Assembly (NCBI RefSeq): GCF_013376045.1
Contig: NZ_JABMJG010000002.1
Coordinates: 186,001 to 250,000, forward strand
Source: Variovorax sp. SG517
Lineage (GTDB): Bacteria; Pseudomonadota; Gammaproteobacteria; Burkholderiales; Burkholderiaceae_C
Direction: 5' to 3'
DNA length: 64,000 nucleotides
The notes under the pieces: generated by a model
The model's database searches: none
What the model saw: only the letters and a program-made list of their open reading frames with translations
What the model was told of the DNA's origin: nothing
Translations under genes and position numbers: made by a program
Shown here: piece after piece, positions 10,892 to 16,143 of the stretch
How positions within the stretch are numbered: the stretch's first letter is position 1
How the letters are laid out: each line of letters starts with the position of its first letter

Positions 10892-11995
10892 TCAGGCGTT
10901 CAGCGCGGCCTGCCGGGGGCGAGTAAGCCTCATGATCGTCTGCGACACCTTGCGGCCTACCACGATGCCAAGGCGTTCGACAGGGTAAAACAGCACCGCC
11001 GAGAGCATGATCAACACCATGCTGGAGAGAAAAAGGATCAGCAAACTGAGTGCAGATATGCCGTGCCCGCTGTACAGGGCCATGAATCCCCACGCCGTGA
11101 AGCTGCACATCACTGGAATCTGCACCAGGTAGATCGAGAAAGACAGACGTCCCACCCATTGCGACAACGGGGTGGAGAGCGCTCGTCGGGCACGCTGGCT
11201 GAGCATGACGCCGAAGATGAGCGCGAGGCTGGCGAACGAGAGCGTCAGCGGCTCGTTGTCTTCCCAGCGCCAGGCTGCCAGCATCAAGCCGCAGGCGATC
11301 ATCAGGCCGGATAGAAGCCGGCGCTTCTCGGAGACTTCGAACTGGTGGAAGTGCCGGCTGTGGCGGAAGTCAGCAAGGGCGCAGCCGAGAGCAAGTGCGA
11401 AGATCGAAGAATCGAGCCACCAGGTCATGCCGAGCAGGGCCGCGTGGCCCACGAGCCGCGCGGCGCGCGAGGTGCCTACGACCAGCAGAACTGCGAACAC
11501 CGCGATCGATCCTTGCATTTCGACCGGCATCGTCCACAGCGACGAGTTGTACGAGGTCATTGCGTTCGGGTCCACGTAGACGCGATACAGCGAGAAATTG
11601 AGCACGTCAGCGACGCTGGGGTCGAATTGATAGAACGCGGACCACCAGAACCAGCTGCCTGCAGCGTAACCGGCGTGACCATTGAGCATCCAGCCCGCCA
11701 CCATCATCGCTGCCGCGATCGCCGAGATCACCAGGATCGGGATGGTCAGTCGAAAGTAGCGGCGCAAGGCGAGGTCTACAACTACGGCGCGTTCGCCGGT
11801 CCTGAAGAAGCCAGCGCTGAGCACATAGCCAGAGAGAACAAAGAAAACGAACACGGCGAAGGTGCCGTCAGCGAAGAAAGGAATTCCCGGGAGGTAGTTC
11901 CGCCAACCGGGAAAAATGGTGATGTGCAAAAGGTGATGCAGCACCACGGCAATAGCGGCCCAGCCGCGCAGGCCGTCCAAATATGGTTCGCGCAT
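10892..11995 (-). CDS. Membrane acyltransferase (acyltransferase 3 / OafA-like), likely lysogenic conversion gene
   Basis: The 367-residue protein has about ten membrane spans and the family start Y-L-D-G-L-R-G-W-A-A-I-A-V-V-L-H-H, in which the His pair is the catalytic motif of acyltransferase-3 enzymes that acetylate sugars of O-antigen, exopolysaccharide or peptidoglycan. An F-V-L-S-G-Y-V-L segment (about residues 52-59) is also typical. It lies between lysis genes and integrase, a usual place for phage cargo. With the small membrane protein 12 bases upstream it may alter the host surface. The acyl acceptor cannot be read from sequence. Confidence 0.85.
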   Translation of the reverse strand: MREPYLDGLRGWAAIAVVLHHLLHITIFPGWRNYLPGIPFFADGTFAVFVFFVLSGYVLSAGFFRTGERAVVVDLALRRYFRLTIPILVISAIAAAMMVAGWMLNGHAGYAAGSWFWWSAFYQFDPSVADVLNFSLYRVYVDPNAMTSYNSSLWTMPVEMQGSIAVFAVLLVVGTSRAARLVGHAALLGMTWWLDSSIFALALGCALADFRHSRHFHQFEVSEKRRLLSGLMIACGLMLAAWRWEDNEPLTLSFASLALIFGVMLSQRARRALSTPLSQWVGRLSFSIYLVQIPVMCSFTAWGFMALYSGHGISALSLLILFLSSMVLIMLSAVLFYPVERLGIVVGRKVSQTIMRLTRPRQAALNA

Positions 11996-12384: not shown

Positions 12385-13125
12385 CTAGAACAGGTCGAGT
12401 TGGGGCGGCGGTGGCGTCGGAGTGCCCTGTGCGGCGCGCTTCGGCCCGCGCTCGCCTGCCGGCCGTTCCTTTTTTGGTCGTGGTGCAAGCGGCGCGGGAT
12501 ACGTGTCGAGCTGACCCATCCATTGCTGGAAGAACCGCGGCGCCTCGTGCACGGGACACGTCAACCAGTCGTCGTAGTCTTCGGGGTCAAGGATCACGAC
12601 CATTCGCTTTTCGTCGCCCGGCCGGTGAAATCGCGACATCACCGGGTGGCCATCGGCGTTGATGGTGATCATCGCGAAGCTGAACATCTCATCGTTGGTT
12701 TCCGGGTTCGTCCACTTCTCCCAGATGCCGGCGAGGCCCATGGGCACCTCGCCGGGCTGCTGGATGCGGTAGCGCACTGCGGGCCCCTCGTCCGTCTCGT
12801 AGAAGGGCTCAAAGATCGCCTCGGCAGGGATGATGCAGCGCTGCCCCATGCGCCAGGCGCTGCGATAGCTGGGTTTCGTGGCGATGGTTTCCGACTTCGC
12901 GTTGTAGGTCTTCTTTCCGTAAACCAACTCCTTTGCGAAGCCTGGCAGCAAGCCGAACGCGCCGTCGTCGACGCGGCGATTGCCAGAGCCGTCTTCGGCA
13001 AGCCTGATGAACGGGGCCATGCCAGTGGGCCAAGTGACGACCGGCCGCTCATCGTCCTCACGGATGACGCCGAAGAAGGACAGGAGCCTGTCACGGCGCG
13101 TCACGGCTTCGTAGTTGCTGCACAT
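12385..13125 (-). CDS. SRAP family protein (HMCES/YedK-like abasic-site DNA-protein crosslinker) with C-terminal clamp-binding motif
   Basis: The 246-residue protein has the SRAP features: Cys2 exposed after Met removal (MCSNY), which crosslinks abasic sites in single-stranded DNA; N-A-K-S-E-T at 75-80; P-A-E-A-I-F-E with Glu106 as likely catalytic residue; and R-F-H-R-P with His167 before a R-M-V-V-I-L strand. A Pro/Lys/Arg-rich tail of about 40 residues ends in PPPPQLDLF, a match to the bacterial sliding-clamp (DnaN) binding consensus QLxLF. It follows the unknown gene at 13151-13678 by 25 bases, downstream of a LexA box, in line with SOS control. Confidence 0.93.
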   Translation of the reverse strand: MCSNYEAVTRRDRLLSFFGVIREDDERPVVTWPTGMAPFIRLAEDGSGNRRVDDGAFGLLPGFAKELVYGKKTYNAKSETIATKPSYRSAWRMGQRCIIPAEAIFEPFYETDEGPAVRYRIQQPGEVPMGLAGIWEKWTNPETNDEMFSFAMITINADGHPVMSRFHRPGDEKRMVVILDPEDYDDWLTCPVHEAPRFFQQWMGQLDTYPAPLAPRPKKERPAGERGPKRAAQGTPTPPPPQLDLF

Positions 13126-13150
13126 CGCTCGGCTCCATCGATCATGAGGC

Positions 13151-13678
13151 TCAAAAGTACCCCGGGCTGCGACCCGAGGCCGTTTCAGGGTTATGGGGCA
13201 CTCGCCGATCCGCCCGCTTCGTCATCGTCTCGCCAATCTTTCTCGCCGCCAGCGATTCCTCGAGCTCGCGTTCGCGCGCCAAGCGCCGCGCCTCGGCCGG
13301 GTTGCCGAAGCGGTCCTCGTCGTCGTCAAAGCCGCCTCGAGGGATCGCAATCGGGCGGCAGAACCACGTCTGAGGGTAGTCGTCCGACTTGATGCGCTTC
13401 ATGCCGATCCCGCGCGTGATGACCTCCATGCCCGAGATCAGGATGCCGCCCTTGATCCTGCGCAGCCTGGCGCGATCGAGGGGAGGGATCACGTACGTCT
13501 CCCCGTCCGGCTGCAGGAGCGATGCCAGAAAGATGCTCCGGCCTGGCCTAGGGTCGAAGATGCGTTCCATGTAGGTCAGGTCGCCCACGCGACGGGTGTG
13601 CTTCACCGCCTCCACGTTCGGGAGCTTCTCACCCTCGTATCGGGTGCGGAAGACTTCGTAGAAGACGGGAATTGACAC
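13151..13678 (-). CDS. Unknown protein, first gene of the leftward SOS-type unit
   Basis: The 175-residue product begins at a GTG that touches the LexA box. An in-frame GTG 21 codons later with GAGGGTGAG upstream could be the true start, which would leave room for a normal leader. The protein is soluble, basic and rich in Arg, with F-D-P-R-P-G-R-S and C-R-P-I-A-I-P-R-G-G-F segments and a charged C-terminal helix (residues about 125-155). I do not recognise a domain. Coupling to the SRAP gene suggests a role in DNA damage response or in prophage induction; this is inference. Confidence 0.65.
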   Translation of the reverse strand: MSIPVFYEVFRTRYEGEKLPNVEAVKHTRRVGDLTYMERIFDPRPGRSIFLASLLQPDGETYVIPPLDRARLRRIKGGILISGMEVITRGIGMKRIKSDDYPQTWFCRPIAIPRGGFDDDEDRFGNPAEARRLARERELEESLAARKIGETMTKRADRRVPHNPETASGRSPGYF

Positions 13679-13699
13679 TGTTTAAATATACAGTAGTAT
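13672..13699 (+). promoter_or_regulatory. Candidate sigma-70 promoter for the rightward SOS gene
   Basis: TTGACA at 13672-13677 is a consensus -35 box, and TAGTAT at 13694-13699 is an acceptable -10 box 16 bases further. The LexA box fills the spacer. Transcription would start near 13706, almost at the ATG of the 66-residue gene, so the mRNA would be nearly leaderless unless the internal ATG at 13734 is used. Confidence 0.6.
13678..13693. promoter_or_regulatory. LexA (SOS) box in a divergent intergenic region
   Basis: CTGTTTAAATATACAG has the CTG-N10-CAG form of the gamma/beta-proteobacterial LexA operator with an AT-only centre, close to the consensus CTGTATATATATACAG. It lies in the 28-base gap between two divergent genes, so one LexA dimer could repress both directions. 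Confidence 0.85.
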
Positions 13700-14535: not shown

Positions 14536-16143
14536 CTAGGAGCTCTCGGCGTCTTCTGCCGCGACGAGCTCACCCGGGCCCTCGATGCGCAGCCAGCGTG
14601 CGGTGCCGCCTTTGGCGTGGAGGATCACGTCGATGCCCGGCTTTGCCGAAGCGTCCGGCTGCATGCCCTTGTGATAGATCACAATGCGCTCGAACGTATC
14701 GGCCACGAGCTGGCGGGCCCGCATTCGCGCTTCGTAGTCGAGAGCTTCCACCCCGTCGACCAGGACCTTCCAGCGTTCGTCTGCGCCGGTTAGATCTGCG
14801 CGCGCCGCTTCCGCGAGTGCGCGCTCGGCGGCTTTGACCTGGTCGCGTGCTGTGTCCCTTTCGAGCTCGAGTTCGCGGGCTCGCCTGATGAACGTGGCGG
14901 GCGCTGCGTCCTCGCTTTCGAGCAGCGCCTCGGTGATGCGCTCGAGCTTGACCTCGATGTCCCGTAGCTGCGCGTTTGCCGCAGCAAGCTCAACGCGGGG
15001 CAGGGCGGCCCGATCGCCGGCATAGAGGGCCTGCAGGTTCACCATGTCGGAGCAGTAGCGCATCAGCGCTCGCTCGATCGGTGCGGCAGAGCATGAGCCT
15101 CTCACCAGGCACCCAGTGCCGCTGTTGACCTTGACGCACTGGAGGCGCCGGTGGCCGTCGGCCAGGCTGCCATCGGCGCGCCGCTTGTTGGCCATGGTTT
15201 GGCTCTTGAGGGGCGAGCCGCAGTAGCCGCACAGGGCGACGCCGAAGCCGGTCAGGAGTGACGGGATCTCGCCCTTGACATGCCGCCTGCTTCGCAGGCC
15301 GACGAGCTCCTGCAGGTCCGTCCATGCGTCTGCATCGATGACTGCAGGGTAGTAGTTCTCGAGGACGAAGGTCTCCGGCTCGAGAACCAGGTGCTTCTCG
15401 CCCTTCAAGGCTGGGTTGGCCAGCAGCCGTACCAGGTGCCCGGAGGAGGGCGGTGCGGCACTGCTGGAGAGGCCAGCCGCGTGCAGGGCCTTCGCGATGT
15501 GGCCAGTGCCCAGGCCTCGGCGGAACATGTCGACGGCCGCGCGCACGGCCTCGGCGCGCTCAGGGATCAGCTGCCACTTGCCGCCGACCACGTGGAGCCA
15601 GCCAGGCGTCTTCCCGTAGCGGATGAGTCCGCGGTACGTGCCGTCAATCCACCCGACGCACTGGCGGCGAATCGCGTCGCGCACACGCTTGCTCTTCGTG
15701 TCCGATTCTTCATGAGCCCGGATCATCACCAGCACGCTGTAGACCAGGTCCATCGGGTTCGCCTTGAGGCGATCGCGGCTATAGACCTTGCCGTCGCTGG
15801 CCGTGACGACCGAGATCCCCGCGGAGATGATGGCTGTGAGCTGGGCTTGGGCTTGAATGGGCTCAGCGCGGGAGAGTCGATCAAGGCCCTCGACAACGAG
15901 GAACGAGCCGGCAGGGACCTGGCCATCTTCTACGGCCTTCAGGAACACGCCGAGGGCGCCTTTCTTCACGTGACGCTGATGGAAGGCCGAGAGGCCTTCG
16001 TCGCGCATCGAGAGAGTCTCGTCCAGCTGAAGGGAGTGCTCTTTCGCCCATGCTGCAGCGTAGGCGCCCTGACGTTCGGAGCTTGCGCCGCCGGCTTGGC
16101 GAGCGTCGCTGAAGCGCATGTAGCTGTAAACCTTGGCCGTCAT
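14536..16143 (-). CDS. Large serine recombinase (phage integrase)
   Basis: The 535-residue protein has a resolvase N-terminal domain with Y-M-R-F-S (Arg10, catalytic Ser12), an E-G-L-D-R-L-S-R motif near residues 84-91, a recombinase domain (about 165-290), and a zinc-ribbon region (about 310-350) with C-G-Y-C-G, then L-Q-C and further Cys residues, followed by a long coiled coil and C-terminal domain. This is the full layout of large serine integrases, which recombine short attP/attB sites without long homology. It lies at the end of the prophage and reads inward. Confidence 0.95.
   Translation of the reverse strand: MTAKVYSYMRFSDARQAGGASSERQGAYAAAWAKEHSLQLDETLSMRDEGLSAFHQRHVKKGALGVFLKAVEDGQVPAGSFLVVEGLDRLSRAEPIQAQAQLTAIISAGISVVTASDGKVYSRDRLKANPMDLVYSVLVMIRAHEESDTKSKRVRDAIRRQCVGWIDGTYRGLIRYGKTPGWLHVVGGKWQLIPERAEAVRAAVDMFRRGLGTGHIAKALHAAGLSSSAAPPSSGHLVRLLANPALKGEKHLVLEPETFVLENYYPAVIDADAWTDLQELVGLRSRRHVKGEIPSLLTGFGVALCGYCGSPLKSQTMANKRRADGSLADGHRRLQCVKVNSGTGCLVRGSCSAAPIERALMRYCSDMVNLQALYAGDRAALPRVELAAANAQLRDIEVKLERITEALLESEDAAPATFIRRARELELERDTARDQVKAAERALAEAARADLTGADERWKVLVDGVEALDYEARMRARQLVADTFERIVIYHKGMQPDASAKPGIDVILHAKGGTARWLRIEGPGELVAAEDAESS

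Follow-up and report, generated by a model that had tools for sequence, protein, structure and literature searches.

Is the SRAP protein of this prophage tethered to the sliding clamp of its host by the last five residues of its own tail? The question arises in the first 16 kb of the 64-kb stretch of DNA that we analysed (the window), where a prophage gene encodes a protein of the HMCES and YedK family whose reading frame ends exactly in QLDLF. A sequence-only reading of the locus had claimed that these residues match the consensus for binding to the bacterial beta clamp, and the match is confirmed here.

RESULTS

The SRAP protein and its tail

The gene and its protein have the following features.

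12385 to 13125, minus strand: SRAP (HMCES/YedK-like) gene, 246 amino acids (ORF call; Pfam PF02586, 110.4 bits; nearest folds)
12547 to 13125, minus strand: SRAP domain, residues 1-193, with C2, N75, E106 and H167 kept (Pfam span; invariant alignment columns)
12403 to 12489, minus strand: Pro-rich linker, about residues 213-241 (AF2 confidence; variable length and sequence)
12388 to 12402, minus strand: C-terminal tip QLDLF, predicted beta-clamp-binding motif (translation; enrichment; published consensus)
13133 to 13136, minus strand: GGAG, candidate ribosome-binding site of the SRAP gene (read from the sequence)

The protein belongs to the SRAP superfamily by its PF02586 profile score, which compares with a curated cut-off of 27.1 bits, and it has the SRAP fold. 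An AF2 model (mean pLDDT 90.1; input, a 42-row alignment) has the Bordetella structure 1zn6 as its nearest Foldseek match (E 9.6e-24), followed by Bacteroides 2f20, human HMCES (6oov, 1.9e-14) and E. coli YedK (8d2m, 2.3e-11). The four active-site residues of the family are invariant in both alignments examined, and E106 and H167 probably correspond to Glu105 and His160, which PMC9436759 names in YedK. YedK is reported, in the accessible text of PMC8041192, to attach covalently to AP sites in single-stranded DNA; by analogy with YedK and HMCES, the window protein would crosslink abasic sites in such DNA. A search of the 7.4-Mb host genome found no second SRAP, and the prophage may therefore supply the host's SRAP function.

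The C-terminus reads ...GTPTPPPPQLDLF, with P-T-P-P-P-P directly before QLDLF and a TAG stop codon at 12385-12387 on the minus strand. Because the Pfam domain spans residues 1-193 only, the tip lies outside it. In the AF2 model of the protein alone, residues 221-246 have a pLDDT of about 61 and secondary structure is absent past residue 210. The model thus agrees with the earlier proposal of a flexible Pro-rich tail, predicting disorder there, and would place the motif in an accessible, flexible region.

QLDLF fits both the original clamp consensus, QL[S/D]LF, and the revised form, Q-aliphatic-x-[L/M]-[F/L], in which the Gln is described as helpful and not required (PMC13254535, accessible text). 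In a review, QLDLF ranks first in strength among the pentapeptides that bind the bacterial beta clamp; the part available to us also reports a large loss of peptide affinity when the Gln is replaced by Glu, Ala or Gly and a reduced affinity with Gly at position 2 of the motif (PMC11139829). A PIP box (Qxx, aliphatic, xx, two aromatics) is not present at this C-terminus, as nothing extends beyond QLDLF.

Conservation among relatives and in the host genus

QLDLF is kept exactly by all three of the closest homologues (L003, L113 and L114, at 87-89% identity); absence of the motif from close homologues, which the sequence-only reading had named as the observation that would count against it, was not what we found. 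Among these three and the window protein, synonymous differences occur at four of the five tip codons, with zero amino acid changes, and the linkers of the three differ from that of the window protein. Judging from these codons, the tip is under selection. In a 16-row alignment of relatives, the linker varies in both length and sequence, and 10 of the 16 rows end in [EQ][LP]xLF; of the remaining six, L026, L030 and L031 have no tail. Between 65 and 78% identity many tips read xxLF and lack the Gln, and Gln-less tips such as TGDLF, GDNLF, VDDLF, KPELF and EPSLF are common in this clade and in the genus. The alignment of homologues that the sequence-only reading had suggested as a check thus shows the motif conserved in the nearest relatives, which keep QLDLF, and the Gln often missing in more distant ones. 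Taken together, the motif, its position at the end of a tail modelled as disordered and its conservation are what a beta-clamp tether would show, and binding to DnaN is predicted from them.

The host has one beta-clamp gene, which is intact and ends FKYVVMPMRI. A Y-family polymerase (PF00817), which we take to be of the Pol IV/DinB type, gave 45 matches, spread over 39 of the 41 genomes of the genus. Among the 30 such polymerase loci read in the genus (L500-L529), 29 end in LF, 28 with TASLF and one with TGSLF, and L503 ends LFESS; TGSLF also ends two SRAPs (L445 and L448). The TASLF tips have Thr where the clamp consensus has Gln, and Gln is therefore not the rule in these polymerases. The clamp motif of E. 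coli Pol IV lies in its C-terminal tail (PMC11139829, accessible part). Since the Y-family polymerase tips of the genus are themselves of the xxLF form, it is at least plausible, by analogy, that the Gln-less xxLF tips of its SRAPs serve as clamp tips.

Enrichment of the tip over chance

SRAP reading frames with a closing stop and at least 170 amino acids were kept (475 of 479 matches, 463 of them distinct), and the 463 were clustered by domain identity at 80%, 60% and 50% and compared with 300 shuffles; the window's own protein (L001, L002 and L112) is included in the counts, and the sample sets overlap partly. Ends of the form Q..L[FL] were found in 35 of 256 representatives at 80% identity (shuffle mean 0.12), in 13 of 113 at 60% (0.10) and in 8 of 67 at 50% (0.02), and no shuffle gave a count above 2. 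The narrower form Q..LF ends 29 of the 256 (shuffle mean 0.03). As a background we used the 1,819 non-overlapping other ORFs of the same loci, which are long ORFs and not curated genes: none ends in Q..LF and five end in Q..L[FL]. In the unfiltered list of 7,034 ORFs of at least 120 amino acids, overlapping ones included, eight non-SRAP frames end in Q..L[FL], one of them being Q..LF.

Gln is favoured at one position. Fifty representatives (80% identity) end in LF or MF; Gln occupies -5 in 29 of these, and any other position between -12 and -3 has it in 0 to 5 of the 50 (binomial p 9e-29, relatedness ignored). A [LM][FL] anchor lies at most two residues from the end in 73 of the 256 representatives, with Gln at motif position 1 in 39, Thr in 10, Asn in 5, Glu in 4 and other residues in 15. 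Most of the Q-tips (35 of 39) stand at the very C-terminal end, and the median tail after the WL of the domain is 54 residues in Q-tip proteins (n 39) versus 37 in those without any tip (n 172/179). By these counts the motif is conserved beyond chance, though in a minority of the SRAPs read. An origin of the tip by chance or composition was rejected on the shuffles, the background ORFs and the codons.

Spread of the tip across bacteria and phages

Spread was counted as Q..L[FL] at most four residues from the end, per set of distinct SRAPs, with matches to the stricter consensus Q-[LIVAM]-x-[LM]-[FL] given in brackets. Q-tips occur in 5 of 31 first relatives (2), in 15 of 80 SRAPs from genome contigs (3; best 80 matches), in 14 of 79 from viral contigs (5; from the best 80 matches) and in 6 of 59 from the same genus or order (0; 60 loci chosen among the matches listed, one of which gave no SRAP ORF). 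The phylum-wide sample comprises 130 SRAPs among at least 150 matches, with stop-containing frames, a number of partial ones, the window protein itself and lower-ranking rows set aside; it yielded 15 of 30 (1) and, in a further set, 15 of 100 (11). Many of the phylum-wide Q-tips are in genomes that lie outside the host's class and that we take to be alphaproteobacterial. Where they stand on single-contig genomes from other classes (L286, L292, L293, L297 and L333) or on rhizobial replicons, they read QGSLF, QMTLF, QMSLF or QLSLF, and many of the other-class tips are QGSLF. Plasmid-borne tips include QMSLF on pSymB of Sinorhizobium meliloti, where the SRAP gene adjoins a NUDIX hydrolase gene, QLSLF in Shinella and QGTLF in Methylobacterium. 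One Geobacter sequence (L487) is in two pieces.

A Q-tip was missing from all 13 phage-collection SRAPs read (stricter, 0; 49 records had a match, and the 13 include an unverified clone of faecal origin, L192), from all 78 distinct Stenotrophomonas-type viral SRAPs (stricter, 0; best 80 matches), from eight of the 11 SRAPs read on bacterial plasmids and from the aligned YedK structure chains. Because all of these SRAPs do without it, the tether is dispensable for SRAP function in general. A viral scan with L285, a QLDLF SRAP from an other-class genome, found no relative.

The midpoint of a quick tree (LG+G4) of 113 domain sequences, in which 47 of 110 inner branches are weakly supported, divides the 15 Q-tip rows, with 4 on the side of 52 rows and 11 on the side of 61. 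At least 12 changes of tip state are required over the 113 rows, with gains and losses indistinguishable; against the 11 rows with Gln-less tips alone there are five changes, three of them forced by well-supported branches.

Three simple descriptions of the distribution were rejected. The tip is not specific to prophages, given the Q-tips at 15 of 30 and 15 of 100 phylum-wide loci, some on single-contig genomes (the prophage status of those loci aside), and on this distribution the phenomenon is one that extends beyond the prophage. Nor is the tip general in phage SRAPs, with none in the phage collection or among the Stenotrophomonas-type viruses, or in SRAPs as a family, since most of those read have no Q-tip and several relatives at 65-78% identity keep xxLF alone.

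Other kinds of tail end were also seen. A few same-genus SRAPs (L453, L455 and L456) end in acidic sequences such as DEEEELPF and ADAEDLPF, which we take to resemble the tip of SSB, and some viral SRAPs (L160 and L158) end in PELPF or PELPL. Such SSB-like tips are possibly a second kind of hub-binding tail.

Prophage setting and a LexA-type box

The prophage in the first 16 kb of the window carries genes for a tape-measure-like protein, a Mu-type baseplate, a tail fibre, an endolysin, an Rz-like spanin, an O-acetyltransferase, the SRAP and a large serine integrase. IMG/VR holds the same provirus (L112), with an SRAP and six neighbours that are each 100% identical. The O-acetyltransferase gene (10892-11995) adjoins the SRAP gene and is a candidate serotype-conversion moron; among 16 viral loci and L003, which are short loci, it was matched in L112 alone. 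Three further features bear on the control of the SRAP gene or on its setting.

13151 to 13678, minus strand: orf175, directly upstream of the SRAP gene in the same apparent operon (ORF; 25-base gap to the SRAP gene)
13678 to 13693, minus strand: LexA-type box CTGTATATTTAAACAG (perfect CTGTN8ACAG; one base shared with the GTG start codon of orf175)
14536 to 16143, minus strand: large serine integrase of the prophage (Pfam Resolvase and Recombinase; phrog_95 integrase)

The box, a perfect CTGTN8ACAG, which we take to be the LexA-box consensus, occurs once in the 64-kb window and stands in the promoter position of the apparent operon; sites with at most one mismatch are as frequent as expected (17 observed, 17.8 expected). 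The product of orf175 has no match in Pfam or PHROG. Relatives of it occur in 6 of 15 related viral loci (L112 aside; several loci are cut off) and in L003, and the arrangement of box and orf175 recurs in L003, L114, L116, L122, L123 and L124. The one-base overlap of the box with the GTG in seven loci, L112 included, hints at a leaderless SOS transcript. Among 450 distinct SRAPs with at least 300 upstream bases, a perfect box lies in the nearest 150 upstream bases of 34, at 50-99 bases in 26 of them, and each 50-base bin farther upstream holds 0-9 perfect boxes. In the host, a one-mismatch site precedes the domain match of the lexA locus by 68 bases, and the recA locus has two one-mismatch sites and no perfect one. 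A promoter and terminator scan gave two sites on the plus strand, one resembling a promoter and the other a terminator. Expression of orf175 and the SRAP gene is probably induced by damage. The only other exact copy of the box in the host genome (L496; G000:C2:27261) stands at the start of a 138-amino-acid ORF with weak similarity to orf175 (BLASTP 3e-6 in a comparison of just these two) and no SRAP beside it; a family of SOS-controlled orf175 proteins possibly exists.

DISCUSSION

The SRAP family, clamp motifs and the parallel with HMCES are already known, and what seems new here is a predicted clamp motif on a bacterial SRAP. We found no report of such a motif in the accessible open-licence literature searched, in keeping with the earlier remark that the arrangement is not known to have been described for a bacterial or prophage SRAP. 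HMCES has been suggested to ride forks on PCNA by a C-terminal PIP box, which the authors of PMC8053108, in the portion available, find closer to APIM. The window protein resembles human HMCES as described there in joining an SRAP domain to a C-terminal clamp motif proposed for travel with the fork; its motif, however, suits the beta clamp and not PCNA, and the two motifs are unrelated and would be equivalents in role, not necessarily homologues. It has the SRAP fold of E. coli YedK (PDB 6kcq, 6nua and 8d2m), but at about 20-22% identity in the structural alignment, and the YedK chains stop 0-6 residues past the domain and are tailless. A short QxxLF-type motif on a C-terminal tail is shared with Pol II, Pol IV and Pol III alpha (PMC11139829, accessible part), although these are polymerases and the window protein is a predicted DNA-protein crosslinker. 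The 2013 study PMC3765255 tied SRAPs of temperate phages to the SOS response, a setting like the present one; the searchable portion of its text does not treat SRAP tail tips, has neither "DnaN" nor "PCNA" and has "clamp" at most once. SRAP-like proteins have also been linked with UmuC-like polymerases (PMC12926913, in part).

We consider it quite likely, on the sequence evidence, that the prophage SRAP is a damage-induced crosslinker of abasic sites, tethered to the host DnaN by its predicted motif. DNA damage would relieve repression by LexA, and orf175 and the SRAP would be made. The flexible tail, of about 30 residues, would then dock QLDLF in the hydrophobic pocket of DnaN and concentrate the SRAP at forks and post-replicative gaps, where it would find abasic sites in single-stranded DNA. 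There Cys2 would crosslink the abasic site and shield it from cleavage and bypass. The tethered protein would act during the damage response, when the prophage may also be induced, and may benefit the phage or the lysogen. Several observations weigh against this reading: the common Gln-less tips of the 65-78% clade and the genus, given the loss of peptide affinity when Gln becomes Glu; the many other-class tips with Gly at position 2; the SRAP sets in which no Q-tip was found; the far smaller number of SRAPs that match the stricter consensus; and the TASLF ends of the same-genus polymerases.

The same tip could instead be a weapon, whereby an SRAP made at high level during induction fills the pockets of DnaN and displaces host translesion polymerase or replicase, so favouring phage replication or blocking mutagenic bypass, with crosslinking secondary. 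The affinity ascribed to QLDLF (PMC11139829, in part) would suit this role, as would the burst of protein upon damage that LexA-type control would give. We nevertheless think it unlikely: similar tips occur on the five single-contig genomes of other classes named above and on pSymB (prophage status aside), and both the SRAP domain and the catalytic residues have been retained. It is rather improbable that the tip is some other C-terminal signal, either an SSB-like tip for proteins that bind SSB or a protease degron. The motif is indeed mostly at the very end, and some same-genus SRAPs do have SSB-like ends (DEEEELPF), but the latter form a separate class, with [LIV]P[FL] ending 8 of 463 distinct SRAPs versus 16 of 7,034 other ORFs. 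Neither an SSB tip nor a degron would explain why Gln is favoured at one position, and the motif persists with one or two trailing residues (QPGLFD, QGRLFN and QISLFSK). The modelled disorder of the tail and the variation of its tip at 65-78% identity might also be expected of a compositional accident in a drifting low-complexity tail; the shuffles, the background ORFs and the synonymous codon changes make this very improbable indeed.

Tethering to a clamp may not be confined to bacteria. The six haloarchaeal plasmid SRAPs whose tails were read (L483-L486, L491 and L492) all carry QxxLxxF near the end, the ends being EQSGLGEFSS (three), EQSDLGEFA, EQSGLDEFSSR and EQSGLDEFFRGFGDLNIV, and the PIP box of Haloferax is given as QxxLxxFx in the accessible text of PMC7776575. 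These six are related to one another and therefore count as one observation, not six. All 59 haloarchaeal rows among the 60 matches listed, some from duplicate plasmids, align to residue 226-228 of the 228-residue query, and a viral scan with the haloarchaeal SRAP found no relative. The SRAP genes of L484, L485 and L486 adjoin a gene for a Cdc6-type initiator. We put at about an even chance the proposal that SRAPs in all three domains have repeatedly gained a C-terminal hook for the clamp of their own cell: a beta-clamp motif in proteobacteria and their prophages, the QxxLxxF PIP box in haloarchaea and the PIP or APIM motif in HMCES.

In summary, a clamp hook on this protein would answer how bacterial SRAPs reach abasic sites, namely by recruitment to forks and gaps, and the SRAP crosslink would then compete with the translesion polymerases under coordination by the clamp. 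Through such a hook the prophage gene, with its LexA-type box, would also gain a concrete, if predicted, partner in the host, and the hook suggests that the link between human HMCES and PCNA is one case of a wider pattern. If the proposal for the three domains is true, clamp tethering would be a general and convergently gained upgrade of abasic-site crosslinkers.
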